DNA of 64,000 nt, taken from contig CM073196.1 in the NCBI GenBank assembly GCA_037042915.1, forward strand, positions 4,278,001-4,342,000. The letters are read 5' to 3'. Below the pieces are notes generated by a model that did not search any database, was not told where the DNA came from, and worked only from the letters and a program-made list of their open reading frames with translations. Below, piece after piece: positions 10,191 to 42,883 of this stretch. Every line of letters begins with the position of its first letter. Position 1 is the stretch's first letter. Made by a program: the position numbers and the translations under genes. This DNA is from Auricularia sp. M13 (taxonomy: Eukaryota > Basidiomycota > Agaricomycetes > Auriculariales > Auriculariaceae).

Positions 10191-10622
10191 CTATACTCCT
10201 CCCAGTTGAGATGCATCTGGTAATCACTTACTTACAGAAAGATGCATCTGACCCTAGCAAAAGCTTATGATATATGGAGGGCCTTGGGGATGCATCCTCA
10301 GATGCATCTGCCGCTATGGCCTGAGGGGAAGAGTCCGTCCTTGGATGCATCCTATGATGCATCTGAAATCTTTTCCGTAGAAGGTGAGGAAACTGGATGT
10401 ATCCCCGGATGCATCCCAGGATGTATCTGGATGTATCCCCTGGATGCATCTGGAATTTTGTACATAGAAGGTGCACCAGACCCTGGATATATCCCAGGAT
10501 GCATCTGGAAGTTTGTATGTAGAAGGTACACCAGACCTTGGATATATCCCAGGATGCATCTGGAAGTTTGTACAAAGAAGGTAAACCAGACCCAGGAATG
10601 TATCCCTTGGATGCATCCTACA
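10191..10622. repeat. KDZ left terminal and subterminal repeat region (GATGCATC array)
   Basis: The first 28 bases pair with the inverted right end except for the six tip bases and two others. Eleven exact GATGCATC palindromes lie between about 10209 and 10616, with several one-base variants (GATGTATC, GATATATC), mostly as GGATGCATC(C/T). They are probably binding sites for the transposase complex. Confidence 0.88.
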
Positions 10623-10689
10623 TATTGATATTCAGGTGATAACGATTTGATATGATAACACGTTATTATTGATAACAAATACGTAAACT

Positions 10690-11343
10690 GCCTCAATTCT
10701 CTATCCTCTGACGTTTCCCTTCCCTCTCAGGCTCCAATCCCTGCGACAGAGAACAGCCCTTTCGCTTTTTTGATCCCTTGAAAGCATCAAGAGTGCGGGC
10801 AGGACCTTGGGGATCATCTGACTCGATTTGTCCGGAATGAGGGCACCATCAATCTCCTCGTCGTCCTCCAGGTCACAAGATACAAGCTCGATGATTTTCT
10901 GTAGCTGCTCATCATTCAGCCTGGTGATGGGACTGTATCGCTGCCATTTCTCGAGAAGGGCACAAATTCGAGCAAGTGGAAGTGTGGGAACATTGAGGAG
11001 TTCCGTACCAGCCTCGTCCCAGGGAAATTGAAGGCTTTTGTAATTCGCGAGAGACTTCGACTAATTGATATCAAATAACATAATAATAACACGTTACCCT
11101 CAGTATCGACCCTCATTGTGCCATGGGGTTGTAGTTTTTCTTTGGAATGTAGAAGGGCACCATGTCATCCTCGCTCAAGAACACAACAGCAAAGGGGAGC
11201 AATGGGTGCATGACGTGGGCGGTGCCTCCCTTTACAAACTTGGATATCAGCGGCTTCCAGCCAGCTGTCGTCAAGTTGTTGTCTTCTCCAATGTCACCTC
11301 CATGGAACATAAAAAACGGGGTGCATTCTCCAATATCCCCTGA
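10690..11343 (-). pseudogene. Third JmjC-family paralog with its catalytic core deleted
   Basis: The - strand segment at about 11310-11113 reads SGWKPLISKFVKGG-like sequence (TAGWKPLISKFVKGGTAHVM) and matches the N-terminal conserved part of JmjC copy 1 (about 11880-12030). After a short intron-like stretch with ATAACA motifs, about 11030-10860 reads FPWDEAGTELLNVPTLPLA, matching the C-terminal part of copies 1 and 2. The whole JmjC core between these parts is missing. A basic stretch with KKRK near the end resembles the nuclear-signal tail of copy 2 but is in another frame. It lies head-to-head with copy 1. Confidence 0.75.
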
Positions 11344-11652
11344 ATTATCCTCTGAATAATAATATCTGAGCTCTCATGCAGCGATGCAGAACTATACCAG
11401 CAGCCATGGTGAATATAGCGGTCCGATAACACCGGATAACGGAAGACAAGTTGGACGGTATCGGTAACGACCGGGTCCGCCCACGCTCATTGCTCCATCT
11501 GCCCCTGGGCTTGCGACTGCCACTGCTCGTATTATTGCCAATAATTCGTCCATGCCACGTTCACCACCCTCTCCCACAAGCATTATTCATACATGTGCGC
11601 AATTAACTGCCTTGACCAGGCCATACTCAAAGAGCATCTCATTGTCCAGCTG

Positions 11653-14036
11653 AGGCTTCATCAACATCAACAGCTCCTGCCATTATCACTAGGGCACACA
11701 CAAAGCCCATCAATTACAAAGTCCACAGTGGGCTTGACCTGAAGCCACCTCCTGGAATAGTTGCCTCTATTGGCGATATTTATTTCTCGCCATCGGCCAA
11801 GCCTTCCCGTGCAGTTGGAGAAGGCCCGCCCTTCTTTATATTCTATGGGTCTAACGTTGGAAACGAAGGCAACACGGCAACCTCTGGCTGGAAGCCTCTT
11901 ATCTCCAAGTTCGTAAAGGGTGGGGCATCACAAGTCATGCACCCACTTCTCCCATATGCTGTGAAGTTCTGGGGAGCAAATGAATCGGAGCCCATCTACA
12001 TTCCTCAAAAGAACTATCCTGCAATGGCGCAGAGGGCAAGGACGAAGGCGGGTGTTGATTCAGATGGTAAAGTGCTGTTATTGTTATTGATAACATTGTT
12101 ATTTATGTGAGTTATTCACGTCCATAGGGATATGCATGACAAAAACGGTTTCTGGCACAAATGCACTGTCATCAGAACCACGCGTGGAGGTCTTGCCGGT
12201 AGTTGGTCATGATCTCAACCTGACTCAGGGCCTTGCCTCACTGCCAACTGGTCTTGAGGCAATTCGTGGCCGCGAAGTTCGCAGCGATGCATCGACAAGC
12301 CGTCTGCTCTGTGCTCCAGGGGCGCCTGATGTTCTTCTACCCAGCGTCGACCCCATTCTGCTAGTGTGCCCCGATCAAAAGGAGAGAAATGTCCGTGTGA
12401 CGCATTCCAGCGAGTGTGGCCTTTTTTGACTGTTTCCAGGAGAAGATGCATGATGCTATCCATGCCATGCTTTCAGCAACCCCTGCAACTGCAGATGAAC
12501 AGTTTACCATACTTGACTACAATCATCAGGACTCTAGGCTCGACGAGACAGTTGCCCACCTCATCTCGAAGAACTATGTTGTAGTCATCCGCAACTTTCA
12601 GTCAGAACCGCTGCTTGATTGGAACCGGGAGACGCTCTTCAGTCATGTCCGATCACCAAATTCCCGCGTGACAACAATGTGTACGTCGCCTATCAGATCA
12701 CCTGCACGTTCATAACCCGTTTTTAGGCCAGGAAAATCGCATTCGCGGTGAGGAGGAGCGTCGTAATTGCATGTTCAACTCGTTTCTGGAAGACATCGAC
12801 AACCCCGACGTTTGCCTAAATCTACTCGACTGTGAAACAAACAAATTCAGTTATGCCTGGCCTGTCCGGTACGTATTTCAATTATTGATATTTCATGTTA
12901 TTGTGATATCCTGTTATTAACATCTGCCAAAGGCGCCTGCTCGGGCATGTGGATGGCCTCTCGAATACATTGAAGCGTGGCCTCGGAGGCCCAGATAATG
13001 AGGAAAACGAGCTTGAACTTCCTCTGCAATGGGTCCACTTAACTCACGCGACATTCTACGATGGTGATCACCACACTGGGCATGGCTTTGCCACTTGGGC
13101 GCACATTCACAATGGAGACAAGTTACTGTCGTATTATCGTCCACGTGCTTCATCACGGGATATTGCTCAGAAGAAGCAATTAAAGTACCTCAATGATGGC
13201 CTGGGACATGGTGGCACTCGATACTCAGTGCGTCTTGGCGCAGGTGATCTGCTGTGAGCACGGGTCCACGTTATTATGTTATTGCGATAACAGCTCTCAA
13301 ACGACGTCTTTTAGCGTACTACCTCCTGGACTTTGTCACCGCGTGTACACCCTCCGGAAGTCCATTGTTGTCGGAGGGCATTTCTTTGCCTACCAAACGT
13401 TGCACCTAACTGAGGCTTCCCGAGAGCTGGATGCTTTGCGCGGCCAGTCATTCATTCATCAGGAACGCATAGCTATTCCGCGCCTTCTATATCGCATGTC
13501 CATTTCAATGGCACTAGGAATGACAGCGAGTCGAGGTATGTTACATGCTCTTTTATGTTTATATGAATTAAGCTTTTTCAGCAATCCCTCGCCGCTGCTA
13601 TCTCGCTCTTCGTCGCATGGTTTGCGCCCTTGGACCGTTTTCTGAGAAGCAGCCCTTCGATCATTATTTTGCTGAGATTCTCTTCTGTCTCCTGGATTTT
13701 CATCCTGATTTCGAGTCTCTTCCTGATGTCAAGAGCTCTCTTCAAGTATACGACAGTCCACAGGTTCGGTGGGATGACGCGGGTACAGATCTCATTGACA
13801 TTCCACCCCTCCCACTTTCGAATATTTGTGCACTGCTCGAAAAGTGGTGGATAGGGTCGCCTATCGCCTATCCAGGACATGAAGGTTGTCTACAACTCTT
13901 TGCCCTCGCCTATCCCAACGAACCATTTACTCCGCCAATCTCTCGGGCCAATTCCCCGATGGAGGAAACAGGCGCTATGGCGGATACAATGGATGAAGTT
14001 CAGGAGCACGGGGATATTACAGCGGAGGACAAGTAG
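11653..14036 (+). CDS. JmjC-family protein, copy 1 (predicted iron site altered)
   Basis: Spliced + strand gene with the same exon plan as copy 2. It has the N-terminal block SGWKPLISKFVKGGASQVMH (about 11880-11940), a helical region starting MHDAIHAML, the JmjC core (ATFYDGDHHTGHGFATW, GDKLLSYY, GAGDLL, PPGLCHRVYT) and the C-terminal WDDAGTDLIDIPPLP region. Introns at about 12066-12126, 12870-12931 and 13255-13316 carry TTATTG/ATAACA motifs. JmjC enzymes bind Fe(II) with HxD...H. Here the HHD of copy 2 is HHT, so the aspartate ligand is lost and activity is doubtful. The N terminus before 11653 is unclear: an upstream ATG at about 11552 runs into a stop. Stop at 14034-14036. It is convergent with the TET/JBP gene. 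Confidence 0.8.
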
Positions 14037-14265
14037 GAGCGGTACGCGTCCCATAGCACCATTCCTGGGGCCACCGGCACTCACAAAAGGAAGGCTTCTG
14101 TGAGATGAGGCACATCGAAGAAGGAATGTCACAGAATTGTATTGTGAATATCAATCCACAAAATTGGTTATCTTGCCCGTTTGAAATCTGCATATAGCAA
14201 AAATGATAACACGATGCGCTTTGATAACATAGTTATTCATAATAACATGATGCCGATAGCTGAAT

Positions 14266-15993
14266 CTACCAAGACCTTTGAATGTAGTATTCCTCTTCCT
14301 CATCAGCTGGCGGGTCCTTTGATTTCTGGTAAGCGATGTCAGGTATTTCTGCACCACACCAATCTAAAACGCTTTTGTGGACAAAGGACGCCATGCAGAT
14401 TCGGTGGCCAGTGAACTTGAGTACCTCGTGTGGTAACATCCGCCCAGCGAATATTGCGCAAGCACCGTGGCCATAGGTCATCTGTAACCCAAGAAGCCTG
14501 ATGCGCAGGTTGCCGCCAGTCAAACCTCGTTCGAGGTTTACAAGGCGTTCCTTGCTATACAGACCACCATGGGCATCACGGTGCTCCACAGAGGACCGAT
14601 TGAAAATCCAAGATATGCCGTGCGTAATCGAGTTCCAGAACCGTCCTGCATCCCCCATGTCCGTCGAATGCGAAAGAACGGTCAGAGCATTGCGATACTC
14701 CTTGGCCATTACAGGCTCTGTGAGCTCGAAGACCAAGTTGAGATACTGCATCTGAACAGAAATGGAGTTGAAGAATGCTTCCACACGCTGAAGACTCTGC
14801 TGATTTTCTGGTCGAATTCCGTGCGACGGTGCAGGAGGTGACTTCTGAAGAGGGTATGAGTTGGCAAACATTAAGCAGAGAGTCTACACACCTTATCTTG
14901 CATGATACCATGCCAAAACGCCGTGTTCCAGACTCCATGTACTGGACCAGTTTTCACGTACGAGCTTGGATTTCCCTTCCCCGCCTTGTCAGACGAAGAC
15001 TTCGAAAGCAAGGAAGGAAATGCAGTGGCCAGTGAAATAGCTTCATCATACATGTGATCCTACAAAGCGTGAAAAAAAAACAGCAAGAATAAATGAATAC
15101 TACTCACGGCATCTTGAACCGGCAAGACTTTTGGAAAATAGTGCAACAGCGGAATACGATCTCGGTCCAGCACGCGTGTTGGATGGTCCTCAGACAGCAA
15201 CATAAAATCCGAATCCTCAGGATCAGGGAATATGCGTCGAAGAATCTTGTCAGTGACTTGGGCAGATCGCCATGTCTTTGCGTATTCGACGATACTGAAG
15301 TTCTTGATGATAACTGTGACATTCGTGGTTCAATAACAATAACATGTTATCATGTTATTATGGACCACTGACTTGTGTGTGCATTTGCTGCATCAACTTG
15401 CGCTTTTGCCAGCGTGTAGAGTCTTTCGTGTAAAGCTGCATCATCCCCGCTGGGTAACATGGCCTAAGGGTACATTAAATATGCAAGCATAAGAGACGTA
15501 TGCACTCGTACATCGACCATTGCTTCCTCTTGAATGTCTTGTAATGGGGCGCGGCGTAATTTCCCAAATTTAAGCACCTCTGTTGAGAGTGGCCTGCAAG
15601 GTCATTCAGGGCGGGTGTGGGCATAGATATGAACACACTTTTCTCGGTACCCAGCTTGGGTGCCTGCACTTGTCCCGTCTGGCAACGACTGCCTGCAGAT
15701 CGCTGTCAGAGCTGTCCAAGACAGCTAATACGGTGACGCACCCGAGGTCCTGCGCGGTGTCCGTGGTACCAGTACCATCGTCCATATTGGTATTTCGAAA
15801 TGGGTGCCAGGAATATCAATAGCGTGTGTGTGTTATCCAGACGAAAAGACGCGCGGCTTGAACTCCGATTCGGCCCAACGTTCCGGCCGGGAATAACAAT
15901 AATATCCGATTATCAATAACACTGAGCATAACGAAACTAAACTTACGACAGACACATATCTCAAGTTCAGATTGATGAGGCCGAGAATTACTC
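14266..15993 (-). CDS. TET/JBP-family 2-oxoglutarate/Fe(II) dioxygenase
   Basis: Five 3' exons are resolved with matching phases: an exon ending near 15511, then 15463-15373, 15313-15108, 15059-14892 and 14844-14266. The introns are 45-60 bp, and the one at 15372-15314 contains AATAACATGTTAT. The catalytic part has the family signature: SSVEHRDAHGG (HxD), GLTGGNLRIRLLGL, MLPHEV (distal His) and GHRICMASFVHKSV (Arg for 2-oxoglutarate). The N-terminal half contains IIKNFSIVEYAKTW, as in fungal family members. The first exons (a possible ATG at 15993, MSNSRPHQSELEI) are tentative. Family members oxidise 5-methylcytosine or thymine in DNA. In basidiomycetes they are expanded and linked to KDZ transposons (Iyer et al. 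2014). All key residues are present, so it is probably active. It could act on the element's own methylation. Confidence 0.85.
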
Positions 15994-16005
15994 ATATACA
16001 CCCTC

Positions 16006-18666
<2,661 letters not shown>

Positions 18667-18754
18667 CGCGACTGGTAGGGGTTGCGGCTCAAGTTGCGCG
18701 CGTCTTAGCAGCCGGCTCTTGGAAATTGACGCCCACCGCGCTCAACACCCTGTC

Positions 18755-19400
18755 GCCGTGCCCATCAGTGGCACGACCTCGCTCTCCATCGTACGATCGT
18801 GCCATTTCGCCCGCATACACCGCCCGGGCCCTCGCACAGCATGCGTTCGAGTCGTCGCGCACGCTGCAGCTGTCCTGCGCGACCGTCGGCGCCCTCCATG
18901 TGCACATTCCCTGACGGCAACGAGTCTGACATCGGCTGCTTCTCCTACATTCGAGCCCGCCATGCCATTCTGATCGTCAGTGGCCGCGGCGGCGACGCGA
19001 CTGGCAGCGCGCGCCCATGGCAGTTGCGCCGCGCTCCCCACATCAACCTCGCCGTCAACCCCGCCGTCATCGGTAGCGACGCAAGTCGAACGACGCCGCC
19101 ATAATCCAAGCTCTGTCATGAATCAGCGCAACCCATCGCGTCTCGCCTCTCGCTCTTGTCCTGCTTTCCGTAGATGCCGCACAGCTACAACCCTCCGCAC
19201 CACCTTACCAGACGATGAGCTGATCGGCGGCAACATGCCTGCGGCCACAATTAGCGTGCTCGAGCGTTAACCCAGGTGCAGCAGAACGATTCAAAGGACG
19301 AATTCCGCCGCAGCTCGCAACGGCCCCCGCGCATCTCCTCTCCCTCGTGGAATCCGGTCGTCGCCTCCATCGATATCCTGAACGTCTTCTTTCGCAGCGG
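18755..19400 (+). repeat. Captured block 1 copy of a sequence also present inverted at about 26400-26800
   Basis: At 18765-18860 the + strand reads GTTSLSIVRSCHFARIH, and at about 26780-26690 the - strand reads GTTSLSIVPSRHFARIH with the same continuation (GPRTACV). Further shared pieces in the same order are the ATATCCTGAACGTCTTC word (about 19375 and 26550), the ACGACGCCGCCATAAT word (about 19092 and 26402), and the AACGATTC...GCAGCTCGCAACGGC words (about 19283-19325 and 26203-26240). The pieces are partly shuffled. The parent gene was not recognised. Confidence 0.65.
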
Positions 19401-19640
19401 CACCTCCTCGAATCACTACCTGACTTGGGCGCCGCGATCCTTGCCACGCGCTCATTGTCTCGGCCCCGCATAATCCCAGCTGACTTACTTACCTTTCAGC
19501 GCAACCTATGTACTCCGACCCGCGCCTTCTTGTCCTATTCTTCTCTCCGTCGGCGCCGCACACATACATACGACCTCGCTACTCGGCGGCATCCCTCAGC
19601 CTGAAACTAGGCGCGCCAGAATGATTCGCACCCCTCTACC

Positions 19641-20353
19641 TTGTCCTCTACCACGCGTCCCGCAGCCGCCTCATCTACCCGCGCCGCCGTCGACCAGCCG
19701 ACCAGCGCAGTCGGCGCACTCGCCGCGGCCTTCGCGTCCGCTTATGCAGGCTCGCGTGCAGCTCCTCCCTGCCTCGCACGCGTGCGCGAGTTCAGGCTCG
19801 GACGCGCCGCTTGGTCGGTTCCACATCGCTCCCCCATCGCAGTTCCCCAGCAATCCCGCACGCGTGCCCTCTTATTGCCACCTCCCTCCTTGCCCGTCCG
19901 TCTTTCTCCATCCGCCCCCCGCCAGCTTGCTTCGCCGTCCGTCATTTCGGGCACAAGCATGGCGCGCCGCTCGCCGACCTCGTCCGCGCCGACCCCGCCC
20001 TGCCGCCCAGCAAGCCTGTGGCAACCGCGGAGGTGGCGGCACTGCGCGCGCGCATCGCTGAGCTCGCGTCCAGCAGATTGCGCAGCGCGAGGCGGCGACG
20101 CGCTGCCTGCTCAAGGATGCGCGCGCCGCGCAGATCTAGCTCGAGATTACACACGTCCAGGCCGAGCTTGCGTGCGAGCAGAAGGAGGAGCGAGAACGCC
20201 AAGCGCATGCACGAGAAGCACATCATGCACACTCTCTCCATCGGCCAGATTCCCACCTTTGCCGTGCTCGTCGGCATCGGCCTCTGCACTGTTATCGTGC
20301 GCATGCTCAAAAACTTGCCGTCAGCTGCGCGCGGTGGGCATACGTGCAGCTAA
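19641..20353 (+). pseudogene. Captured remnant of an unrecognised coiled-coil membrane protein gene
   Basis: Several overlapping + strand frames carry pieces that look coding: a basic/Ala-rich N-terminal part, HGAPLADLVRADPALPPSKP, a heptad-like helix (EVAALRARIAEL, about 20030-20060), then EKHIMHTLSIGQIPTFAVLV with a hydrophobic segment AVLVGIGLCTVIVRML (about 20262-20310). The pieces lie in different frames, so the gene is degraded. No family was recognised. GC-rich and free of the element's ATAACA motifs, it belongs to captured block 1. Confidence 0.4.
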
Positions 20354-20777
20354 TGCCTCATCCTTTTCATGTTGGCTTGCTGCTGCTGCCGTCTGCTCTT
20401 TATACCTCGATTCATCGTCTTAATTTGCTGTCTGCTCGCTGCCTGTATGTATTGCTCTCACCCGTGCCATGCCCTGCCTTTATGACTCGTAACAATTTTA
20501 TTGAATATCTCCACATTCCGTGCGCCCTGTACATAGTAATAGGGCAGCTTCAATGGCATTCCGTCATCCCGAAGAAAGATCTAATGTTATCACATAGTCG
20601 ATACCATGTTATTTGAAACCACCAATTTTTGCCAGTCCGACGGATGGCCTCGGTTATTACCGGGCGCACTCCTTGTCATCCGCTATCCGTGTTAACATCG
20701 ACCCTGCATTATAGTACGCACCTGTAGTCTGTGCAGATTAAAGCAGGGCTCTTACGGCTCCATGACAAGCAGGAACA
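20354..20777. other. Border of captured block 1 and upstream region of JmjC copy 2
   Basis: Composition shifts from GC-rich to near-neutral here. The element's motif reappears at about 20583-20610 (TGTTATCACATAG, CCATGTTATTTG), marking return to native KDZ sequence by about 20560-20580. No gene was seen. The stretch before the ATG at 20778 should hold the promoter of JmjC copy 2. Confidence 0.5.
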
Positions 20778-23700
20778 ATGCGGCTTACTGTGCTCGCCGA
20801 AGGCTATGACTCAGATTCCAGCTCGGACGCGGTGGATGGTCAGCTCCAAGCTGCGCCATGCTCTCCTACTCTGGCGTCAGAGCAGCGTCACCCACCTGAG
20901 CCTCCTACCACGCTGCCTGAAACATGTGACCCTGGCCGCGTGCTTGGCCCCACTTGGCCCGCCAGTTCTACTGCTCCTGTCGTCCTAGCCGCTCCTACTG
21001 CGGCCATTTCTGCTGCTTCTTCTCCGTTACAATTGTGTCAACCAGGCCAATCTGGACCATCTACCAACCGTCCCAATACTGTGGAAGCTGGTGCCATCGC
21101 TGCTCGCACTCCCGCACGTTCTCCCAGTGCCGACTCGACCTCTTCTGCCTCTCGTGCTCCTGGTGGTGAACCTCCTGCTCTTCCGGAAGGCATAATATTC
21201 AAGAAATATACGTCACCGCTGGAGTATACCGTGTACAGTGGTCCTAGCTTGGATCCACCTGCGGTCAATGCGTCTGTTGGCGACCTCTATTTCTCGACCT
21301 CAGCTGAACATTCTGGCATTTTCGGATCCGGCCTGCCTTTCTTCATGTGTGTACGACCGTGCGCTCATGGCAAGAGAGCTGTAGGAACAGTGGAGCCAGC
21401 ACAATGGAAGGAAAAGGTGTCGAGGTTCGTGAATGGCGGCGCATCTCAAGTAGCGCACCCGCTTCAGCCGTTCTCCGTCCAATTCTGGGATCAAAAAGGA
21501 TCGTCATGGCCCGAATACGTCGCCAGAACAACCTTCAACGTCAATGCCCAGCGGATGAGGGAGGCTGCAGGTGTCGATAAGACCGGTGAGACGTGTTATT
21601 TATGTTATTATGTTATTTCTACTGTTATTGACTTATTTCAGGCGCTGACAAGCGGGGTGGATCTGCTTCTGTCGAAGAAGCACCTGCTTCAGGTACGATA
21701 AATCTTGATTACAAAATGAACCACTCTTTGAGTAGCAATGTAGGTAAACGGACACGCGGTCGCCCACGCAAGGTCAAGGACGAGGCTACGCATTCAGGTG
21801 TGCCAAAAATCAATATTCACAATGACAGTTTATCCTGACGCTATAATCATAGGCGTATCCAGAATTCCCGAAAGAATTTCCTCATCAGGCGGTCGCGCAG
21901 TGGCGGATACGAAAATACGTGCAAGTCTCCCTGACATGCAAGGCGAAATCCCTGGGGTTATCCCCAGCATATCCTCTCTGCCGACCTCACTTGCCGCACT
22001 GCGCGGTTCCGAGGTTCGAGCTGATGCAGCTATGAGCCCTGTGATATTCGCGCAGCAGGCGCCAGAGATTGTGTTGCCGAGCATCAATCCTGCGCGCCTG
22101 GTCTCGTCCGAGCAAAAAACTAAGAACGTACGTACCAGGCTGTGACCAGATGCATGTCTTTGACGAAGCTCTAGGAGGACATGATCGACGCAATTCATGC
22201 TATGCTAAATGCACCCCCGGCGTCTGCAGACAAACAATTTACGGTCCTCGACTACAACCGCACTGATGCGTCTCTCGACAAGATTGTGGCTGGCCTCATC
22301 TCCCGCAACCATGTTGTCGTGGTCCGCAACTTCCGAAATGGGCCCTTGCTTAATTGGGACCATGATACGCTTTTTGACCTTGTGCGAGCCCCTGAATCAT
22401 TGGTCACACCCCAGTGTATGTTTATCTTTTGGCTTCGTTGCTCCCTTACTAATGAGGTTCTTAGCACAAGAAAACCGCATCTTGGGGAAGGAGTCCGTCC
22501 ACACCCATTGCTCTTTTGCTTCGTTCCTCAAGGCGGTCAATGACCCCGATACGTGTCTGAACCTGCTGGACTGTCAGACAGATCGATTTGGCCAAGCATG
22601 GCCAGTCCGGTATGTCTGAATTCGTTATTGCGTTATTATGTTATTTGTTATTCACTTTGGCTTCAGGAGATTACTCGGGCACTGCGACGGGCTGTTCAAC
22701 ACGATGAAGGACGGCATCGGTTTCGAAGGTGTCAACTACCAGCTCACCGATATGACATTCCCTTTACAATGGGTTCTTCTTACGCATTCAACATTCTATA
22801 CCGGGGACCATCACGATGGCAATGGCTTTGCAACCTGGGCGCATGTCCAAGACGGCGACAAACTGTGGTCGTACTACCGTCCGCGATCTGACGAACGTAT
22901 GATGGCCCAAGAGAAAATGTCCAACCACCTCCGTAAGGGCGGAGATACGAAGGGCGGCACTCGGTACTCCTTCTGGATCGGCCCAGGCGACTTGCTGTGA
23001 GTTGATGTTATCATTATGTCATTGTTATTCAATAACCGATAACATGCTATCTTTAGGATCCAGCCTCCCGGGCTGTGTCATCGCGTCTACACCGTGCGGA
23101 AGTCCATCGTTACTGGAGGGCATTTCTTTGCTTATCAATCACTGCACCTTACGGAGGCTTCCCAGGAGCTCGACTCGAAAAAGGGTGAACTCTTCACCAA
23201 CGAGGAACACCCAGCTGTTCCCCGGCTTCTGTCGCGCATGACCATGTCCATGGCCCTGGGAATGTCGGGAAATCAAGGTACATTTGATTATTTACAATCA
23301 ATTACTCAACTTACAACTGTCGCAGCAATACCTCGACGCTGTTTCCTCGCGCTTCGGCGTCTCATTTGCCTTCCGGGAAACTACAAGCAGGTTTATACCA
23401 ACGAGAAGAATCGCAACCTGCAGACGGCAATGCGCAAAGACATGGCATGGATCGAGGATCGTCACGATTTGCTGGCAGCATCTGTCATTTTCCGGCTCCT
23501 CGACCATTATTTCAAGATGATCGGTTTCCCTCTTCCTCCTGTGGAATCCTCGCTCGCGCATTACGACATCCCTGGAGTTCCCTGGGATGCAGCCGGAGAC
23601 GACCTGGTCGATGTTCCTGCACTCCCAATGGATCAGATATATACGCTGCTCGACCAATGGACGACCGCACCTGGCTTCAGCAAGGTCAGCGACGAGCAAA

Positions 23701-23888
23701 TTCAGAAGCTCCTTTCCGTTGCTTTTCCTTCTCGAGGCTTGTCGCCGCTGTCTTCGCCGAGCGCATCCGACGGAGAGAATAGCAAGCAGAGTAGCGGGCT
23801 GGACCTCACAGCAGAGCAAGCCACTGTATCAAGGAAACGAACTAGATCCCAGTCCGCCCAGTCAACTCGGAAAAGAGCCAAAAAGTAG
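20778..23888 (+). CDS. JmjC-family protein with AT-hook, copy 2 (intact)
   Basis: Nine exons with consistent phases (20778-21585, 21642-21692, 21744-21797, 21853-22127, 22175-22415, 22465-22609, 22667-22996, 23057-23277, 23326-23888) give 895 residues. The N terminus is a Ser/Pro/Ala-rich tail followed by a conserved block (about 21180-21580). Then come an AT-hook (KRTRGRPRKVKDE, exon 3) and a helical region from MIDAIHAML. The JmjC core follows: STFYTGDHHDGNGFATW with the HxD iron ligands, GDKLWSYY, GPGDLL, PPGLCHRVYT with the distal His, then GGHFFAYQSLHL. The tail RKRTRSQSAQSTRKRAKK is a likely nuclear signal. Several introns (21586-21641, 22610-22666, 22997-23056) are rich in TTATTG/ATAACA motifs. 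JmjC proteins demethylate histone lysines or hydroxylate proteins; the substrate is unknown. It is probably a chromatin-acting cargo gene and the best preserved of three copies. Confidence 0.88.
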
Positions 23889-26393: not shown

Positions 26394-26399
26394 CTGGGA

Positions 26400-26800: not shown

Positions 26801-26825
26801 AACACTGGTGTACGGAATCGCTCCA

Positions 26826-30330: not shown

Positions 30331-30982
30331 CATCGCCTGAATGAATTATCAGCCAACGTGCACGGGCTGTAAACTGTAGCTAAACGGAGTACGGCCCTGT
30401 TGATACAGGCCGTATTGCCAACCATGAGTACAGTCACGACCATCACAGTCGCAGTACGGCTGGCGGTACTGTTGTACAGAATAAAAAAAAGACCTGGGAT
30501 ACTTACCAATGATACCAATGATGGGATTCTCCGTAACGGTTGTCGACGACGAGCATGCCATAACGCAATTCGCCTTTTCCGATTAACTGGCCACCGCACG
30601 GCCCATGGCATTTGGCACGTCCAGAACGCGCATACTGGCAATGAGCACGGCTGAAAGGAAATTGCGTTCAGGATATCAGTCAATAATCGTGGAATTGCGC
30701 GTTGGACCAGGCGGTCGAGCAGGACACGGCGAGCAGCGATAGTAAACGAGACAATGCACGGTCAGCGCGTTATCCAGGCACAGCCAGACGCGATGCGCAC
30801 CTCTATCGCGTGCTTAGACGCCATCTTGAAGTTACTTTCTGTAGGATATCGCTGCTGCTGTCGAATCGCGGGCTTGTGGCGGCTGTTCGGATTTTTCGGG
30901 TCCAAGAAGCGTGGCGCGAAACGAAGCTCCGACCCGGACCTTATTCCGCCTCAGCTGCTCCGACGTCGAACTGCTTTGCGCA
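30331..30982. other. Spacer between captured helicase and F-box remnants
   Basis: On the - strand, about 30660-30500, there are short coding-looking pieces in different frames, possibly the 5' end of the helicase gene or of another gene. On the + strand a basic region (FGSKKRGAKRSS, about 30890-30930) precedes the F-box frame. Nothing complete was found. Confidence 0.35.
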
Positions 30983-32141
30983 ATGGCATCCGCCAGTTCC
31001 TGCGCGCTCCCGCAAGCGCATCGTGATAGTATATTTAGTCCGATATCAACAGTATTTGAATGCGGAATTAATAGCCTCGAAGCAGTACCAAAGTTCGTAT
31101 TGCGCAAAATTTTCACCGCCACATTTATAGCGACGAGCTCATTCCATTTCAGCTCCGAAGAGGCTAGCTCGCTCGCGCAGTGTATTTTTGACTGCGTTAA
31201 GGAAACTTTAGCTGTCAAACTCAGCGCGCAGAATGAGCGAAGGTCTGCACAGGCTATTCTTCCGGACGAACTGCGGTGTGCAATCTGGGAGCGCCTGCCT
31301 TTCTTCGAGTGTATCGCGGTCACACACGTATGCAGGAGATGGCGCCATGTTTCCCGCTCATGTCCCTCGATTTGGCAACAAGTTACTTGCTTTACAACAG
31401 TGCATGATACTGCTTACTGCATTTGTCGCGACTGCGTCGTCAAGGATGATGGGTTCTGCTGTAAATGTTGGGACTTGGACCCGAGGGTCTTCCACCGAAC
31501 ACTCACCGTACACCCGTGGGATGGGACAGCTCCCCCTACCGTCGCAACACTACCAACCTCGCTGCGGCCGTTGAGATCCTGCAACGCAGTGTGGACCTGC
31601 CGCTCAGCATTACCCTCGACATTGTCCCTTACGACGCGCACTGCGATCCCTTAAAATCCCTTGCGCAGGTTCTCCAGCCTCATCTTCACTGCCTGTGTGC
31701 ACTTCGCGCCCGTTCCGCCGACACGACCGCCGTGTGCAAGTTTCTCTCGTTCTTCTCAGAGCTCCCATCGCTGCGCGACTTCTCCGCCGAGCTGCTGAAG
31801 AATAGGAGTCCTTCTGCATTCCTCAGCGTGTTGTTCCCCGGAAAATCGCACTTTCCGCTCTCGAGAAGATCCATCTCGGACACGGCTATCACTGGCCCAA
31901 TGGACCATAACTTCCGGCTGTCCACACCTTGTCGTTGACACCGAGCGACCTCATCCATGTCGTGTGGGCGCTGCAAGGATGTCCCGCTCCTCACGCGCCG
32001 CTCTCACCTCACGCGCCGCTCACACACGCCGTGGAGCCGTCCTCTTCCTGGCCACCCACTCGCGCACTGTGCTCGTTCCGGACCCTCGTACTCGCCTTCG
32101 CGCCCCATCATTACCCGGATTCCCGCCCACTCCCGCGCTGA
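30983..32141 (+). pseudogene. Captured F-box protein gene remnant
   Basis: From an ATG at 30983 the frame reads to an F-box (ILPDELRCAIWERLPFFECI, VTHVCRRWRHVSRSCPSIW, about 31257-31375), the substrate-adaptor motif of SCF ubiquitin ligases. The downstream leucine-rich part (LQRSVDLPLSITLDI, FFSELPSLRDFSAELL, about 31578-31800) is in another frame, and a third segment ([18 protein letters not shown], near 31930-31985) follows. The gene therefore has at least one frame change and no normal end. It abuts the EPSP synthase fragment. Confidence 0.72.
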
Positions 32142-32213
32142 TCGGCCCAGCCTTTCCCAGCCTTCCCACTGACGCCAGTCACCAGTGCCTCGAATCTCTC
32201 ACGCTACTTATTC

Positions 32214-32488
32214 CCACTGTCGAGGTCCTGCCCGCCGGCACCGCCGCGCTCTTCCTCACGACCTTCTGCACGCGCGCCGCGGGCCCCGGCAAGACGCGCA
32301 TTACCGGCAATGTGCGCATGAAGCAGCGCCCCGTCAGCCCGCTCGCGTACGCCAAGGGCAACGGCTGCCTGCTGCTGTGCATCGCGCTGGGCATCCGCGG
32401 CGGCCACATCCGCCTTGCGGCGAGCGTGAGCAGCCAGTACGTCAGCAGCGTGCTGTTGAGCCTCGTCCGGCAAGGTGTCCGCGCGTGA
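32214..32488 (+). pseudogene. aro1: Second AROM fragment: part of the EPSP synthase domain
   Basis: The + strand reads [34 protein letters not shown] and [20 protein letters not shown]. It matches the EPSP synthase part of the captured AROM at about 17190-16910 but lies on the opposite strand. A piece between MKQRP and the YAxGxGCLPL-type segment is shortened. It marks the right edge of captured block 2, while the larger AROM piece marks the left edge of block 1. Confidence 0.85.
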
Positions 32489-34702: not shown

Positions 34703-37242
34703 TTATTGACAATGACAGTTATTTGTCATTGACAACAAGCGGCGCATAACAAATAACATTCTAGAATTCTGGGCTTGCTGCTTTTCCAGAGCGTCAGACA
34801 GGCGGAGCAGCTTGCACGTGCTGTCCTGCTCGAGAACTGGGGGCTGGTGGGTGCTGGCCCTGGGCGAGCGCTCTATGACGCGGGCATGTGGTGAGATGGA
34901 GAAAGAGGCAGCCCATGAGGCGTTGTCGCACGCTGGCTGAACCACATAGACCTGCATGAATGCGATGCATAGAGCTGCATGAACGCGATGACCTGCCCTG
35001 TATCTCCTCAATGGTCTTCAGGTCTGCTGCCGTGCAGAAGACCCTATTCCTGGTGCTGCACAAAGTGATCTCAACGGGGCACAAAGTACCAGGTTATGCT
35101 ATTGGCTGCTGTTATCCGTGTTATCCGTGTCATGCCAAGTGTGGGGGCATGTGCGACGGACCATGTATTTGTGTGGCTGGGCCATGGCTGGACCAGTGTG
35201 GCTAAGAGGACACATCTTATCTTCCAAATCAGCTTCTTTGACGTGCACTCCTGTGTTAATACACAGCAGGGTAATGGTTCATTGAAAAGTATCTGCGCGC
35301 TGAATCTGCGCACTAACAAGAATTGGATTGCAATTGAATAAAAAACGTTTGAACAGGATTACGTTGCACCCTGAGTTACCTGGACTTCTCTGCCCGGGGA
35401 CGAAGGCGCCTAGCAACAGCTTCCGTGAATCGTGGACCCTGTGTGCGCTTGTTGGGGCTGTCATGCCCTGCAGGGTCCTGTGCACGCTTTCTCTTCCTGG
35501 AATTTGCCCCCAATTCCCCGTCAGACTGCCGGATCTTTGTGGAAGCGCTGTCTTCCCTTCTCTGCTGGATTGTCGTCCTTCGTGGGCGACACGGAGACTT
35601 GACAAAAATAGGACTGTGGCAAAGGGGTATAAGTTATCTGTTATCCGTTATCGGTTACAGTTATTCATCAAACTCACGCAGTAGCGGTGGTTCTTCGACG
35701 CACGGCCAATTTTGACACTTTAACTGATGAACATTAGAATATTAAGATATGAGAGGAAAGACAAAGATCTACCTTTGACCTGCTGCAATGCTGCAGGCTC
35801 TGCAATGTGCCTCAAGGCTGGCACTTGGGTGGCTCTGGGCGACTGGAGGTCTTCGAGGGCGTCATTGTGCTCTTCAAAGTCGTCACAGGCTGCTGAGTTT
35901 GGTGATGAGGCCTGATGGAGGGAAGGTTCTGCAGAGAAGGGCTTTATAAGCTATCACGGTGGTTTGGACGGCATACCACGGCCATTTTCCAGCTCATTCA
36001 CATTGCGATCGCATTCCTGCCCTTCGCCATTTTTTTCTGTTGAGAAAAGCATTAGTCCCTGTTGTTACTATATCAAGACCATGGCAACCTGACTCAGGTG
36101 TTGCAACCTGTGGTGGGAATGCTACTTTTTGTGTGCAGTGGGCTGCAAAGATTATCAACACCTGCCTGCGAAATACATCACATGCTCCGCACAGAGGACA
36201 TCTTTAGCCGCCAGGCCGAATTCCTTCTGGAAGTCTTTGAGCCCAGGCAGGTTCCCTTCTTTGTGAAGAGGCTCCGACTGAGAATCTCGGCGCGAGCTGT
36301 GGCTATATGTTGTTCAGAAACAATAACATACAATAACATGTTATCACATACCAGATGGACGAAAGTACATTCGCGTCATTGTACCCTGCTGCAAATGCTA
36401 ATACCACGTATCCCGTCGCTTCTTGTACATCATTTGCCATGTTCCCAAGGAGGCGAGCAACCTCAAGGTTTGACCTTGACTATGTTATTGATGGCAAATG
36501 CAATACGGGCGACATACAGTGGGGCAGCTGCCTTTTGTACTTGAAGTTCCCGCTTGCTCTTGGTCATCTCCTCAGCCTGTAATTCGAGTTTCTCGCGTTC
36601 GGTGGGTGGGAGAGCGTCAATTTTGGAGGATATAGTCTTATTCAGGTTTCCAATGCGCTCGCGAGCTGGAATGCCCAGCGCATCTGCTTCATCGTAGAAG
36701 TCCTTGATAAGCTCAGGGTGCTCCTTGATGAAGACATCGCGGGGTCGAACAGCTTTTGGGACAGGTGTACGACTGCTAGTGGGTGGTCGAGGAGATGGGG
36801 CATGGTTCCCTGCCGCCCGCCGTGCAGCAGTGCCTGTCGCGTTGTCAGGCAATTTGGTGATACGCTGTGAGAGATATGTTATCCTGGTAATCCATAATAA
36901 CAAATCCATAATAACAGAACAACTCACAGTTTTAAATTGAGCATCGGTCAGTTTCTCCCTTGTCTGATGGTCAGGAAATGCGGCAGCAAAGTCGTTCACA
37001 AGTTGGGTCTTCCATCGGCCGTAGGTATCTGCTTTTTTGTGTTTCTCGATGAGCTCAATAGTTACATGGGTTTTGATCCAGTCGCGCTCGGCGGGCGTTT
37101 GCCAGCTCCGGCCCATGCTGCTTGGCGTGCGGTTGACGGTCTGGTGCAAGTAAGCGGGCAAGCTGCGGAAGCAGTGAAAATCGTTACTTCCCTGCGTCAA
37201 AACGTCCACAGTGCCTCCAGGATCAGCACCTGAGCAGCGCAT
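34703..37242 (-). CDS. KDZ accessory gene X: hypothetical nuclear protein, divergent from the transposase
   Basis: ATG at 37242. Exon 1 includes WQTPAERDWIKTHVTIELIE, GRWKTQLVNDFAAAFPDH. An intron at about 36926-36865 carries TTATTATGG and ATAACATA words. Exon 2 continues with RPRDVFIKEHPELIKDFYDE and LPPTEREKLELQAEEMTKSK, and a further piece, ARLLGNMANDVQEATGYVV, is followed by an intron containing AATAACATGTTAT (36332-36344). Later pieces include a basic exon (KSPCRPRRTT, SRKRKRAQDPAGHDSPNKRT, about 35600-35395) and a helical end (CKLLRLSDALEKQQAQNS, near 34790). Exon joins after 36400 are uncertain, so this could be two genes. Its position beside the transposase suggests a role in transposition. 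Confidence 0.5.
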
Positions 37243-37347: not shown

Positions 37348-40300
37348 ATGCCAAAGCGAAAGCGTCCAGACGACTTGGTCATTGCAGATGCTGATATCAT
37401 GGTTCTGGATGAAACCATGGCACTGGTGGAAGGGACAGCTGCCGACTGTTCCATCGATGTCGAGTCTGTTCCGCTCGATCCTGACATAAGTCCACCACGT
37501 TCCAAGACGCTTCACGATGGTGCTGGTGTAAAAACGAACATGTCCCAGACAAATGGGAAGTCTGGTAGCAGGATGGTGTGTAGTGATTTTGATTGGCAAA
37601 ATTATCTAACTGTTTTAAGACCACGTCAGAAGAATCGAGGGATTTCCAGGACAACTACGCTGCGCAATTACTCGACATCATGCTAGAGTCCGAATGCTTA
37701 TCCGATGCTGGCTGTGTCGAATGTGGTACATCCTGGTCCTCAACCGCCCTCGCATTTCGGTGCCATGATTGCTTTCATGGGCCTGTATTTTGCTGCGACT
37801 GCCTCCTGTCCCTGCACCGTTACACACCGACACATCGTATCTCGGTTTGGAACGGAAAACACTTCGAAAGAACTACGCTCCACGAGCAGAAACTTGTCGT
37901 CCACCTTGGCCATCGCAGTCGCCCCTGCACCTCTGTGCATACAGTCTCAGGATCCAAGACAATTTCCGTTACAGATTCACTCGGGGTTCAGAATGTCTCA
38001 ATCCGATACTGCACATGTCGAGATGCAAACTCAGAATTCGCGGCTTCTGAGGTCGTGCAACTCTGGCGGGCTGGTCTGTATCCTGGTACATTCAAACGGC
38101 CGCAGACCGTTTTCACGTCATCTGTATTCAAAGACTTTCATCTCCTTACGCTCCAGGGAAGCCTTAATGCATACGACTTCCTTCGCTACCTGCGACGTAA
38201 AACAAATAACGTATTTGTTAGCGACGTTAAGGTCTGTTATTTGTTATTAGTGATTTCTTCCTCGACTGAGATACATCTGCAGGAGCCATATCGACCGTTC
38301 ATGCATTCATTCAGACAGTGGTCATATTTGATTTCGCTGAAAAGAAATGGAATTCGTCCCTCATGGGACCTCCCTGCTCGAAGTCTGGCCGTTCTCTGCC
38401 CAGCCTGCCCGCAGCCAGGGATCAACATAGCGCAGAATGAGTGGGATAATCTGCCAAAAAGCCTTCAGTAAGGATAATTTTACCTTAAACTATATTTCTT
38501 ATGTGGTTACCAGCTTTTTGGTGGCTCTCTTCGTCAACATGGATGGAAACTTTAAGCTCAACCAACGTGACAAGCTGATGGATATCAACGATCTTCCTTT
38601 CACCACTGGTGCAGCATACTATGCCAATGAGGTTCTTTACAGCCAGTACCTTACTGAACACAATGTTGAGAATGACAGTCTGGTGCGTATAACATGTTGT
38701 CAACAATAACAATAACAATAATAACAATATATGTTATTGATAGCCATCGACGTGCAGTAATTTTGGAGCCTTACGCAATGGGAGATACGCAGGAAAGAGG
38801 GTGTCTGGCACGGTTGCGTTGACATGCAAGCATGAGTACGTCCTCCCAGAAGGCTGTGTTGATTTGCAAAAGGGCGAAAGGTGGGTTAAACCCTGATAAT
38901 TTATGTCTGCCAATAACCGCATTCAAGATATCGGAACGTTGACTATGCTGTCTATCACGCCCTAAAGCACTACAAGAACCTCCCACTTCTCTACAGCTCA
39001 TACGACATCAATTGCCAGTATAAAGTCAAGTTCTGGGATCGCATGTGCGACAGCTTTGGCTGGGTCCCACTTACGACAAAGGTCATCTTCGGCATTGGGA
39101 AATTTCATCTGCTTGGCCACAAGGAAGCCTGCAGAGGTCCATATTCCTTCAACTATATTCGCGGTTCTGGTCTGTTTTGTGGCGAGGGTGGAGAGCGACG
39201 CTGGCCAGCTACAAATGCAATCTCCACCTTCGTTCGCGAGATGGGTCCGGGACAAATGCATGACACCATCAACGACCATCACTCAGATCTGAATATACGC
39301 AAGACTCATCAGATGGGTACGTCTTTCACTGCATGCCTTTCACCATCTCAACTCTCATAGCTTCGAATCTTGGAGAAAAGTACCTTGAAGCATTAAAAGT
39401 GTATAAAATCATCCAGGACGAACTGTCGAGCCTCGAAATCAGCCTTGTCAGCAATGGTCTCCCGCTTGCCTCCTGGAAAACACAACAGAAGCGATATATG
39501 GAGAAAATCATGTCTGGAAACTGGAAAAGTGATGTTGCAAATCCGTACATCGCACAGGCCGATCTTGGTGAGCCTTACAAAACTCGTGAATGTGATTCGG
39601 TCCTAAGTATCCAAGCTCCTTCTGCAAAATCCATAAGGAATCAGTTAGATAAGGAAATATCTCAGGGCTCAAGGCCAGGCCTCATGACTGGAGTTCCTGC
39701 AATGATCCAGGAGGGAATCGACTTACAGGAGAAGCAGTGAGTCTTGAAATAACATAGTAACATGATATTACGATAACATGATAACACCTCAGGTGCGATA
39801 TTGCGGAGAAGGCCAAGACTGCAACTACCGACAGCGATATTTCTAGCCTAGCTGACCTGCGCAGGCGCTGCTTGACGCGTGTCGAAGACTTCTACTCGTG
39901 GCAGCAGAAGCTCATGGGATTAGTCAATCTGGACCTAGTCCCTTTTGATGCAGCAATACGGTGCGAGGATCAACCAATTCAACTTCCCTCTCAGTTGCCT
40001 TCTGCTTCATATCACATGGACGGAATGCGTGCGTTCATCTGCGCCGAGATGGAGCTTCGGAAGGCTCAGTGCAATGATGCACTTCGGACACTTCGGCGCA
40101 AACTTAGCTGTCGTGCAGCTCTGGAGAAGGAGAGCTCTGAGAACGACACTGGGCAGAAGTCCAAGACCAGGTCCTACGGATTCATCAGTCGGAACAAGCG
40201 ACTGGTGACACAAGCTGCTGCTGGTTACCGTCGCGGTAGAGCTGCACTGCAGAAGCTGCTTTCGACCTGTGACTCAGCTGAAGCTGAAGCACTTGAGAAA

Positions 40301-40929
40301 TTGTATCCACCACTGCTGGACAGCGAGCTTATTCCACTCCGACTTGACCCAAGTAAGTTTCAAGTCGTTGTTCAAAGATAACAATAACATTACTTCAGCG
40401 AAGCAAATCGGACGTTCGAAACGTCGCATTGCATGGTTTTGGATGGAGGCAGCAGCCCACAATGATCACATAGATGATGACCAGCCGCGGGCCAGAGGAC
40501 TCTTCCCAGATCAAGATGTTACGACTTGGGAGGAAGAATGTAAGTCCTTGCAGGAAAATCAGATCTCATATCTAATGCCGCCCGCCAGTGCTCCGAGTGG
40601 AATGGTTCGACGCCCATGCCCGAGTATGCCGAGCAGCTGAGCACCTATATCTGCTCGAAGAGGAATTCAGACGGACGTTGGGATTCTTCAAGTATTGGCA
40701 AAGGATTTGGGGTGATCGCGGAAGAACAGCCTTAAATCCAGGTCAGAAAGCTTATTCGAACCGGTGAGTGGAAATACGCAGTTTATTCAGACGTCTAACA
40801 TTGTATATAAGTCAAGCGTCTATGTACGGGAGACTTTACCAGAATTGCGAGGACAGACGAAACTTGTGCGGTATACCTGAGACTAGAGACCTTCGGAGAA
40901 TTGAAGCTGTTATCAACCTTTTGTATTGA
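37348..40929 (+). CDS. KDZ-superfamily transposase with CxC2 cysteine cluster
   Basis: ATG at 37348 (MPKRKRPDDL). The first intron is 37576-37619 and further introns lie at about 38227-38283, 38470-38516, 38682-38741, 38883-38927, 39316-39359, 39739-39792, 40352-40398 and 40765-40809, several full of ATAACA motifs. The N-terminal CxC2 domain reads CVECGTSW, FRCHDCFHGP, CCDCLLSLHRYTPTHRISVW, then RYCTCR and LYPGTFKRPQTVFT. The catalytic region has NMDGNFKLNQ (first Asp), SYDINCQYK (second Asp), FHLLGHKEACRGPYSFNYI and CGEGGERRW (Glu). A helical C-terminal part ends AVINLLY with stop at 40927-40929. All diagnostic motifs are present and splice phases checked at several joins agree, so it is probably functional. 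The enzyme cuts and joins the element ends in the nucleus. Confidence 0.93.
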
Positions 40930-41267
40930 TACGTTATTGCAATAACATCGTGTTATAGTGACATGTTATTACAATAACATTCGTTAGCACAACTGTGCCT
41001 TACGCGTCATAGGGCGCCCATGAGTTAGCCACGAGGCACTGACAATTTAAATTGGAATGCTTCGAATGATCTGCAAGGGTCCTGACTTCAGATTCTCAGC
41101 TCATGGTGGTTGCTCTCCCATGAGACAGTGCACAGTAACTTAATTCCAGAATATGACTGCGAATGATAAAAGGGAAAATGAGCAATGAGGAAATGATTCT
41201 ACAGGTGCAGATCACTTAGACACCTGTCATCAGGTGGCAGCGGCGAACATTTACAGTGGGGCACGGA
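40930..41267. other. Spacer after the transposase
   Basis: It opens with a run of the element's motif (ACGTTATTGCAATAACATCG, GACATGTTATTACAATAACA, about 40930-40982), which could serve as a 3' signal. No gene was found. Confidence 0.5.
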
Positions 41268-41636
41268 ATGGGGCCGTTTGCCCAACTACCCTTTCCTCAA
41301 AACCGCTACATTCCCCACCGCCCTCGAGCCATGCTTACAATCTCCGCTGTCGTTATCGGAGCGGTTTCGTTTTTGTGTGCTGTGACGGCCATCGCTATTC
41401 TAGGTGCATGGCAATACAAGCGCCAAAGGGTGTCACCCAAGGCCGGCTCCCAGGTGGAGCTTGTTGAGCGCGGGGATGGTCGTCCTGTGACGCCTGAGTT
41501 TGGTGAGTTTTTTTTCTTCACGATAAACACATCCTCATTTCGACCAGACACAGACCTCGACTTGGAGGCACTGCAGCAGGCCCTGCAGGATGCCTCGGGC
41601 CTGCGTTCGGACACACCACAGGTTTCCTCCAAGTGA
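41268..41636 (+). CDS. Small single-pass membrane protein, unknown
   Basis: ATG at 41268, one GT-AG intron (41503-41547), 107 residues in all. After a short N-terminal part (PHRPRAM) there is one clear membrane segment (LTISAVVIGAVSFLCAVTAI) followed by YKRQR, a topology of outside-in with a basic cytosolic stop. The C-terminal tail is acidic (DTDLDLEALQQALQDA). The intron lacks the element's motif, so it may be a captured host gene rather than a native one. No family recognised. Confidence 0.55.
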   Translation: MGPFAQLPFPQNRYIPHRPRAMLTISAVVIGAVSFLCAVTAIAILGAWQYKRQRVSPKAGSQVELVERGDGRPVTPEFGEFFFFTINTSSFRPDTDLDLEALQQALQDASGLRSDTPQVSSK

Positions 41637-41935: not shown

Positions 41936-41936
41936 C

Positions 41937-42296
41937 AGCTGTCATTTGGTTTCGATTGGCGCCTGTCCGATGCAGACCCTTCACAATGCCATTAATCGAG
42001 GAAAACTGTTCGTCCACTTAGCTGCAGGCGGAGTGCAGCGGACCTTCAACGCCTCTTTTCCCCTTTCCCCCACCATCGGCACGCACTGCCATGGTTTCAT
42101 CTCCCTCCATGCCCTAGCGCTAGTCCACCTTGGTACCCTGCAACACAGAGTGAGTATGTCTCCATAACCACATTGCTAATAAATACTGATTTTTTCCCCT
42201 AAAGCCTTCCCCCACAGCCTACAGTGCAAATTGCAGTCTGTTCTGCCATAACTTGGTAAGCATTTTTCGTCGTGCAGGTGATTTACGATGCGTGCA
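41937..42296. other. Spacer without a supported gene
   Basis: A + strand frame at about 41946-42166 has no homology I recognise and no clear splice context. Nothing else was seen. Confidence 0.35.
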
Positions 42297-42461
42297 CTCT
42301 GATACTGATGTTATTGTTATCGATTTTAAATATCCAGATACAATAACATGTTATTCATAACTGTACGTCCCATTATCATTTTGTGTGCTCTGATAATTAT
42401 GTTATTGTTACTGATTTCAGATATCCAGATATAATAACATGTTATTCATAACTGTACGCGT
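42297..42461. repeat. Two-copy tandem repeat, about 90 bp unit, each with AATAACATGTTAT
   Basis: Two copies of TTATTGTTA(T/C)...GAT...ATATCCAGATA(C/T)AATAAC, then ATGTTATTCATAACTGTACG, lie at about 42309-42369 and 42400-42461. The perfect palindromic core AATAACATGTTAT is at 42342-42354 and 42433-42445. Other exact copies in the element are at 15338-15350, 33870-33882 and 36332-36344. Confidence 0.82.
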
Positions 42462-42514
42462 TCTTCCTCCAATCATCATTTCATCTGATAGCCTCCGTCT
42501 TCTTCTCCGCATAC

Positions 42515-42883
42515 AGATGGATCCCAGATGCATCCCAGATGTATCTCAGATGCATCCCAGATGTGGACCAGCCAGGGGTCGGGCTGGGATGTATCCTGGG
42601 ATGCATCTTCGGTGCGATGCATCTTGGGGAGCTCCTGGGGTCGGATGCATCGGGATGCAGACAAGAAGATGTGGATGCATCATGGAGGCACACAGTAAGT
42701 GGACCTGTGCTTTGACATCTGCATCTTGCAAGATGCATCCTCGATGCATCGGATGCATCTTGCAGGATGCAGCTTGTTACTCTCTCTTGATACCATGTAC
42801 ATACCTGAGTAGCTTACTTACTAGGATGCATCTTGTGTTAAGTAGTTAATTGAGCAGATGCATCTGAAATGGGAGGACGGCTC
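42515..42883. repeat. KDZ right terminal and subterminal repeat region (GATGCATC array)
   Basis: Eleven exact GATGCATC palindromes lie between about 42530 and 42866, mirroring the left end. The tip reads, inverted, TCCTCCCATTTCAGATGCATCTG. The number and variant types match the left array. Similar arrays at both ends are typical of transposons whose transposase binds several subterminal copies. Confidence 0.88.

Follow-up and report, generated by a model that had tools for sequence, protein, structure and literature searches.

A 32.7-kb KDZ-type element with probable captured gene fragments, nested in a long terminal repeat of Auricularia sp. M13

We analysed a 64,000-nucleotide stretch of the Auricularia sp. 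M13 genome (GenBank assembly GCA_037042915.1, contig CM073196.1, positions 4,278,001 to 4,342,000 of the forward strand), referred to below as the window and numbered from its first base. At 10191–42883 it holds a 32,693-bp element that entered a long terminal repeat (LTR) as a single insertion. The element has paired inverted ends, sequence matches to a KDZ transposase, to a TET/JBP dioxygenase and, weakly, to JmjC enzymes, and two GC-rich blocks of what is probably captured gene DNA.

Borders, ends and genes of the element

The interrupted LTR has an uninterrupted partner of 858 bp at 45933–46790. Its first part is repeated at 9774–10190 (417 bp, 100% identity) and its last part at 42884–43331 (448 bp, 99.55% identity); the two matches overlap by 7 bp, GATAACC, and 417 + 448 − 7 gives 858. 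Rejoined with a single GATAACC, the flanks form an 858-bp sequence that agrees with the intact LTR at 856 of 858 positions. From the split LTR the borders can be placed to the exact base, with GATAACC as the target-site duplication (TSD). The original prediction had drawn its precise borders from this split LTR, and they stand; the inverted ends agree with them.

10191–42883: whole KDZ element, between two copies of GATAACC (split LTR, 7-bp TSD, rejoined site 856/858)
10184–10190: left TSD copy, GATAACC, the overlap of the LTR matches
42884–42890: right TSD copy, GATAACC, the overlap of the LTR matches
10197–10219, plus strand: left inverted repeat, starting at base 7 of the element; 21/23 against the right end at the same offset
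42855–42877, minus strand: right inverted repeat, starting at base 7 from the right end; 21/23 against the left end at the same offset
10191–10617: left subterminal array of 11 GATGCATC motifs (starts 10210–10610), a probable transposase-binding region
42527–42883: right subterminal array of 11 GATGCATC motifs (starts 42527–42857), with the same presumed role

Bases 7–29, counted inward from either end, agree in inverted orientation at 21 of 23 positions, a level reached by none of 200,000 random internal pairs. The termini read CT..TC. The palindrome GATGCATC occurs 23 times in the window, always within the element, and 22 of these sites lie in its first and last ~430 bp, 11 at each end. The locus comes from a single assembled sequence, which would leave room for an assembly artefact joining unrelated sequences. 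An exact TSD and position-matched inverted ends at the same borders are unexpected from a misassembly, and we give that explanation next to no credence.

The LTR that was split is part of an LTR element at 9774–46790 with TG..CA ends and a 5-bp TSD, CCGCT, which itself sits within a second LTR element at 3271–48901 (TSD CCGTT; LTRs 99.4% identical over 717 bp). The nesting clearly gives the sequence of events: first the outer LTR element, then the inner one, then the KDZ element, which is therefore the youngest of the three. The inner LTR element has just 2.6 kb between its LTRs once the KDZ insertion is excluded.

All gene models were produced by our own splice search, which picks open paths and was run without transcripts. 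The genes that give the element its character are as follows.

37348–40539, plus strand: CxC2-KDZ transposase gene (splice model, 3′ end uncertain); PF18758 2.5e-46, PF18803 2.4e-26
14270–15702, minus strand: TET/JBP dioxygenase gene (N-terminal exons uncertain); PF12851 8.2e-10, CcTet 7vpn 4.4e-8
20778–23888, plus strand: JmjC-like gene JMJ2, ~930 aa (splice model); PF08007 0.0015, below cut-off
11650–14036, plus strand: second JmjC-like copy, JMJ1, 50% identical to JMJ2 (splice model and alignment)
10701–11351, minus strand: inverted remnant of a third JmjC-like copy, JMJ0 (open reading frames, ORFs); 11132–11333 is 72% identical to 12016–11815

In the spliced model protein of the transposase, the KDZ domain match spans positions 2–217 of the 217-position profile, placing the protein in the KDZ superfamily, and the N-terminal cysteine cluster CxC2 is one associated with KDZ transposases. 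No tyrosine recombinase was found among the Pfam matches of the selected ORFs scanned. Searches of viral and prokaryote collections, neither of them fungal, with 222 transposase residues returned 27 and 19 pattern matches, respectively, and no relative.

The predicted TET protein matches two CcTet sequences (4.4e-8 and 5e-8). Its metal-binding HxD, distal H and downstream R align to CcTet, which gives it the metal triad of AG-type TET/JBP enzymes. At the position of CcTET Asp337 the ungapped alignment has Glu; the Asp is reported to be conserved in Kyakuja AG-type TETs (PMC12730594). The same source gives TSDs of 7 bp for Kyakuja and 8 bp for Zisupton elements, and the 7-bp GATAACC agrees with the former and not with the latter. 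Its sequence matches place the element among the already known TET-carrying KDZ elements, and its likeness to Kyakuja lies in the 7-bp TSD only.

JMJ1 and the JMJ0 remnant lie just inside the left end. A profile built from JMJ2 and JMJ1 retrieved nine PDB sequences at E ≤ 1, the best at 0.0055 and every one of KDM2A/KDM7/PHF8 type; H-x-D and a subsequent H line up between the profile and the matches. The original prediction had also named a KDZ transposase and chromatin-type genes inside the element, and both are borne out, the second by the TET/JBP match and, weakly, by the JmjC-like genes. Kojima proposes escape from silencing as the role of TET in such elements (PMC12730594), and by analogy TET, perhaps with the JmjC-like enzyme, is probably used in this way here.

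Three further native genes were modelled.

36160–37242, minus strand: helical-segment gene, possibly HMG-box-like (splice model); AlphaFold2 helices with a predicted local distance difference test (pLDDT) score >90 over ~50 residues
32952–34630, minus strand: multi-exon gene (splice model, exon borders uncertain); no Pfam match on the spliced protein
41220–41636, plus strand: small ORF in which one hydrophobic segment was recognised by eye (ORF and splice model); no Pfam match

The model of the first of these is only suggestively HMG-like. An HMG-box identity was not adopted, given no Pfam HMG match above cut-off and Foldseek E-values of at least 3.5 for the AlphaFold2 model, with 4 of 26 matches being HMG-box proteins.

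Captured gene DNA and its probable route into the element

Two GC-rich blocks, with borders placed by composition and homology, total 13,051 bp, in keeping with the 13 kb in the original prediction, which took it to be captured host DNA, a putative origin. They make up about 40% of the element and have a GC content of 0.630 against 0.491 in the rest, which we call native DNA. Neither block contains the word AATAACA, which recurs in the native DNA and is described in the next section.

16010–20549: captured block A, GC-rich, no AATAACA; holds the broken minus-strand AROM gene
23950–32460: captured block B, GC-rich, no AATAACA
16009–18666, minus strand: broken AROM gene, with a frame break between DHQS and EPSPS, an internal deletion between EPSPS and shikimate kinase, and its end missing
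24539–25690, minus strand: broken long AspRS gene with a C-terminal extension; 9w9e matches split over frames, middle missing
26829–30761, minus strand: Rad5/HLTF-like gene with HIRAN, SNF2 and RING parts; second helicase domain not recognisable
30845–31651, plus strand: F-box ORF, PF12937 3.8e-6
32233–32461, plus strand: second AROM (EPSPS) fragment; two pieces match parts of 16903–17164 in inverted orientation at 89% and 91% identity

The genes in the blocks are of ordinary cellular kinds. Two of them are fusions that we take to be fungal: AROM, and the long AspRS, presumably an ErdS-like joining of AspRS with DUF2156. The three captured genes examined (AROM, AspRS and the Rad5-like gene) look broken. 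In AROM, DHQS pieces were detected with Pfam, and the EPSPS and shikimate-kinase parts share one ORF that skips residues 732–942 of 6hqv; the match ends at residue 1071 of 1589. The DHQS and EPSPS parts lie in frames 2 and 0 and overlap at 17460–17466, where the DHQS Pfam match itself stops at ~17529 and its extension to the frame overlap at 17460 was made by eye. In AspRS, residues 77–163, 713–749 and 776–860 of 9w9e are matched in one frame and 170–260 in another. At each of the two frame changes, 25081/25079 and 25035/25033, the adjoining pieces lie 1–2 bp apart, which leaves no room for an intron; the short third-frame piece between the two changes (25035–25079) was placed by eye.

The Rad5-like gene has recognisable domains, with HIRAN (1.1e-20), SNF2 (1.2e-27, plus further SNF2 pieces) and RING (6e-11) matches and a match to RAD5 6l8n at 6.4e-23. 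No helicase-C match was found in the five ORFs covering 26431–27316; a stretch at 26958–26990 resembles the start of the second helicase domain by eye, with no Pfam match. In the splice model this gene seems to retain introns, which would point to the capture of genomic DNA and not of cDNA. The stretches that precede the broken AROM gene (18770–19329) and the broken AspRS gene (26193–26760) are 62% similar in inverted orientation, as if the genes had once stood head to head.

The original prediction had the element acting as a cargo carrier and set it beside the Starships. On a Starship-style reading, the captured genes would be working cargo of benefit to the host. Such a role would suit the ~13 kb of gene DNA within a mobile unit, the still recognisable HIRAN, SNF2 and RING parts, and the possibly intact F-box ORF in block B. 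It is opposed by the AROM gene, in which residue 732 is joined to 942 and a frame break precedes the stop at 1071/1589, by the AspRS gene with its missing middle and two frame changes, and by the Rad5-like gene with no recognisable second helicase domain. We rejected working host cargo on these grounds, part of the evidence being read by eye, and consider it very improbable; scrap capture fits better.

The foreign DNA was probably inside the element before it landed. The two AROM copies differ by ~10% and the genes have decayed, against 2 differences in 858 bp between the LTRs, so the fragments appear to have been aboard before this insertion. The blocks might instead have joined the element once it had landed, either independently or within another transposon, and their sharp composition borders and lack of AATAACA would fit such a composite. 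However, their decay and self-divergence are far above the LTR divergence, although decay before arrival is possible, and no repeat pairs mark their borders: in the 250–300-bp stretches tested around these borders, neither inverted 10-mers nor direct 9-mers formed exact pairs. On this ground we dismissed a nested element as the vehicle of the blocks, and a composite of either kind seems improbable to us.

Base composition was also compared. CpG observed/expected ratios are 0.80–0.96 in the native parts, 1.25–1.31 in the captured parts and 1.14–1.27 in the LTR flanks, with TpG/CpA values of 1.13–1.27 in native and 1.04–1.09 in captured DNA. This contrast fits native DNA that was long methylated and fragments that arrived later.

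Taken as a whole, we put at roughly 0.8 the probability that the locus is a single recent insertion of a TET-carrying (Kyakuja-like) DNA transposon of the KDZ superfamily, possibly autonomous and grown larger through the capture of gene fragments. Its transposase would bind the GATGCATC arrays and cut and paste the whole 32.7 kb, while TET, acting on DNA, and the JmjC-like enzyme, acting on histones, would relieve silencing. The broken AROM, AspRS and Rad5-like pieces would have entered as genomic DNA, most simply as repair filler after excision, and would be carried along without function. The split LTR shows that insertions of over 30 kb in one event are within the reach of a KDZ element.

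Several points weigh against this reading. One copy was seen, and that the full unit can move is deduced from its single insertion. The outermost 6 bp of both ends fail to match, and the CT..TC ends with a 23-bp inverted repeat depart from the CA..TG termini without terminal inverted repeats (TIRs) described for two Laccaria Kyakuja families (PMC12730594). The JmjC assignment is weak (E 0.0055 against PDB; Pfam JmjC_2 0.0015, below the Pfam cut-off), and a JmjC structure model failed at a pLDDT of 35 and was not used. The gene models are open by construction, which is no independent proof of intact genes. Coding bias could account for part of the CpG contrast, and a separate inverted-repeat element at 52824–63853 is also CpG-poor (0.69). 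That element is 11 kb long, with ~920-bp inverted repeats (98% complementary) that contain 22-bp subrepeats; no Pfam match was found for seven of its internal ORFs.

A recurrent heptamer in the native DNA

11074–42446: 63 AATAACA/TGTTATT sites in 28 clusters, within the element in native DNA only

AATAACA is the most frequent 7-mer of the native DNA, with 63 sites in 19.6 kb against a mean of 2.45 in dinucleotide shuffles. The captured DNA has none (0.28 expected), and the 31.3 kb of flank has two (1.77 expected). Enrichment in the element's own noncoding DNA and rarity elsewhere is the pattern expected of a VANC-like motif, where the comparison is of one copy with the rest of the window. The TSD GATAACC resembles GATAACA, a word also common in the element (30 in native DNA), through either target preference or coincidence.

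Most sites lie outside exons: 58 of 63 with hand-edited gene models and 50 of 63 with the raw automatic models, in which the density is 8.5 per kb outside and 0.95 per kb inside exons. The hand edits took the first intron of JMJ2 (four sites) out by homology to JMJ1 and dropped doubtful terminal exons of TET, the transposase and the genes at 33–35 kb. A count of 63 of 63 outside exons was discarded as circular, the exons having been re-cut to remove the remaining sites. Site spacing was more even than in the reference (coefficient of variation 0.59 vs 1.29, 0 of 5000), a figure based on these re-cut exons and on reference noncoding positions that are themselves clumped. Only one of the six AATAACA frames contains a stop codon, and the avoidance of exons therefore cannot be put down to the choice of ORFs alone. 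Introns contain the word in 14 of 29 cases in the edited models and in 17 of 47 in the raw ones. Among neighbouring sites at most 100 bp apart, 26 of 35 pairs have the same orientation.

Whether these sites form a binding motif is finely balanced, and we give even odds to simple-sequence drift or a habit of intron composition. Some sites sit in (AATAAC)n-like runs, and 17.8 occurrences are predicted by an order-3 Markov model, although that model picks up the motif from the noncoding DNA it describes; both points weigh against a motif. So does the sense-strand bias of the 14 motif-bearing introns (TGTTATT 22, AATAACA 7), as U-rich splice signals might give. On the other side, the 58 noncoding occurrences compare with 1.5 under an order-1 and 2.8 under an order-2 model, the word occurs in both orientations and at intergenic sites, and five perfect ATAACATGTTAT palindromes are present against 0.0–0.1 expected. 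The JmjC paralogs (12072–13309 and 21586–23056; proteins 50% identical) also argue against drift: of the five introns compared, 1, 4 and 5 have AATAACA in both copies, at the same places, and 2 and 3 have it in neither.

As the least certain step of the mechanism, AATAACA sites could be docking points for an element-encoded protein that keeps the whole element open. We put forward, tentatively and as a rather unlikely possibility, a fungal counterpart of VANC in which such a protein would bind AATAACA, sometimes as ATAACATGTTAT, in clusters every ~0.7 kb, and recruit TET and the JmjC demethylase to erase DNA and histone silencing, leaving the motif-free captured fragments unprotected. If true, this would be a sequence-specific anti-silencing system acting on both DNA and histones, evolved independently of that in plants. 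Were TET, the JmjC enzyme and a self-marking motif to cooperate, the targeting of a fungal transposon-encoded TET to its own element could be put to a direct test with a single motif and a handful of candidate proteins. No self-marking motif in a KDZ element appeared among the literature matches listed.

Comparison with known systems

One close likeness is to the TET-carrying Kyakuja elements of Agaricomycetes, which share a KDZ transposase, a TET/JBP protein with HxD and a 7-bp TSD (PMC12730594). Unlike these, the Auricularia element lacks CA..TG termini, has an inverted subterminal repeat, and has Glu in place of Asp337. It goes beyond the Kyakuja elements described in that source in its JmjC-like gene, its 13 kb of gene fragments and perhaps its 32.7-kb size. 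The original prediction held that a KDZ cargo carrier of this size in a basidiomycete looks new. The core set of KDZ transposase and TET/JBP is of a kind already described (PMC12730594). No JmjC gene in a KDZ element was found in the literature searched, though Iyer et al. 2014 may already describe one.

Cryptococcus KDZ1–KDZ3 likewise combine a KDZ transposase with a cysteine cluster, and these elements have been shown to move (PMC12810828). They differ in size (~9.2–11 kb), in their 139–241-bp TIRs, in having CxC1, and in TSDs of 8 bp (KDZ1) or 4–8 bp (KDZ2 and KDZ3).

For the heptamer, the model system is VANC21 of Arabidopsis, a protein that binds the motif YAGTATTAY, enriched in the noncoding DNA of its own VANDAL21 element, introns included (PMC5735166). 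The two share a short motif that is dense in the element's own noncoding DNA and introns and forms same-orientation arrays, and which for VANDAL21 is rare in other transposons. VANDAL21 encodes its anti-silencing factor, for which the predicted counterpart here would be TET with the JmjC-like protein. The elements belong to different superfamilies and kingdoms, ours is known from sequence alone, and the parallel is by analogy only.

Transposons of the Pack type also hold gene fragments. The gene-capturing Helitrons of Pleurotus are a further case of gene fragments inside a transposon (PMC4289320). Unlike either, the Auricularia element is of the KDZ type, encodes a transposase of its own along with accessory genes, and holds 13 kb of captured DNA.

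Starships resemble it as large fungal elements that carry genes not needed for transposition (PMC13066641). The original prediction set the element apart from Starships as a feature of ascomycetes, a contrast weaker than stated, as a basidiomycete, Tremella fuciformis, is reported to harbour eight Starships of 42–606 kb (PMC13066641). The differences lie in the machinery and the load: a KDZ transposase here and a tyrosine recombinase in Starships, and broken fragments here where Starships bear accessory cargo (PMC13066641).

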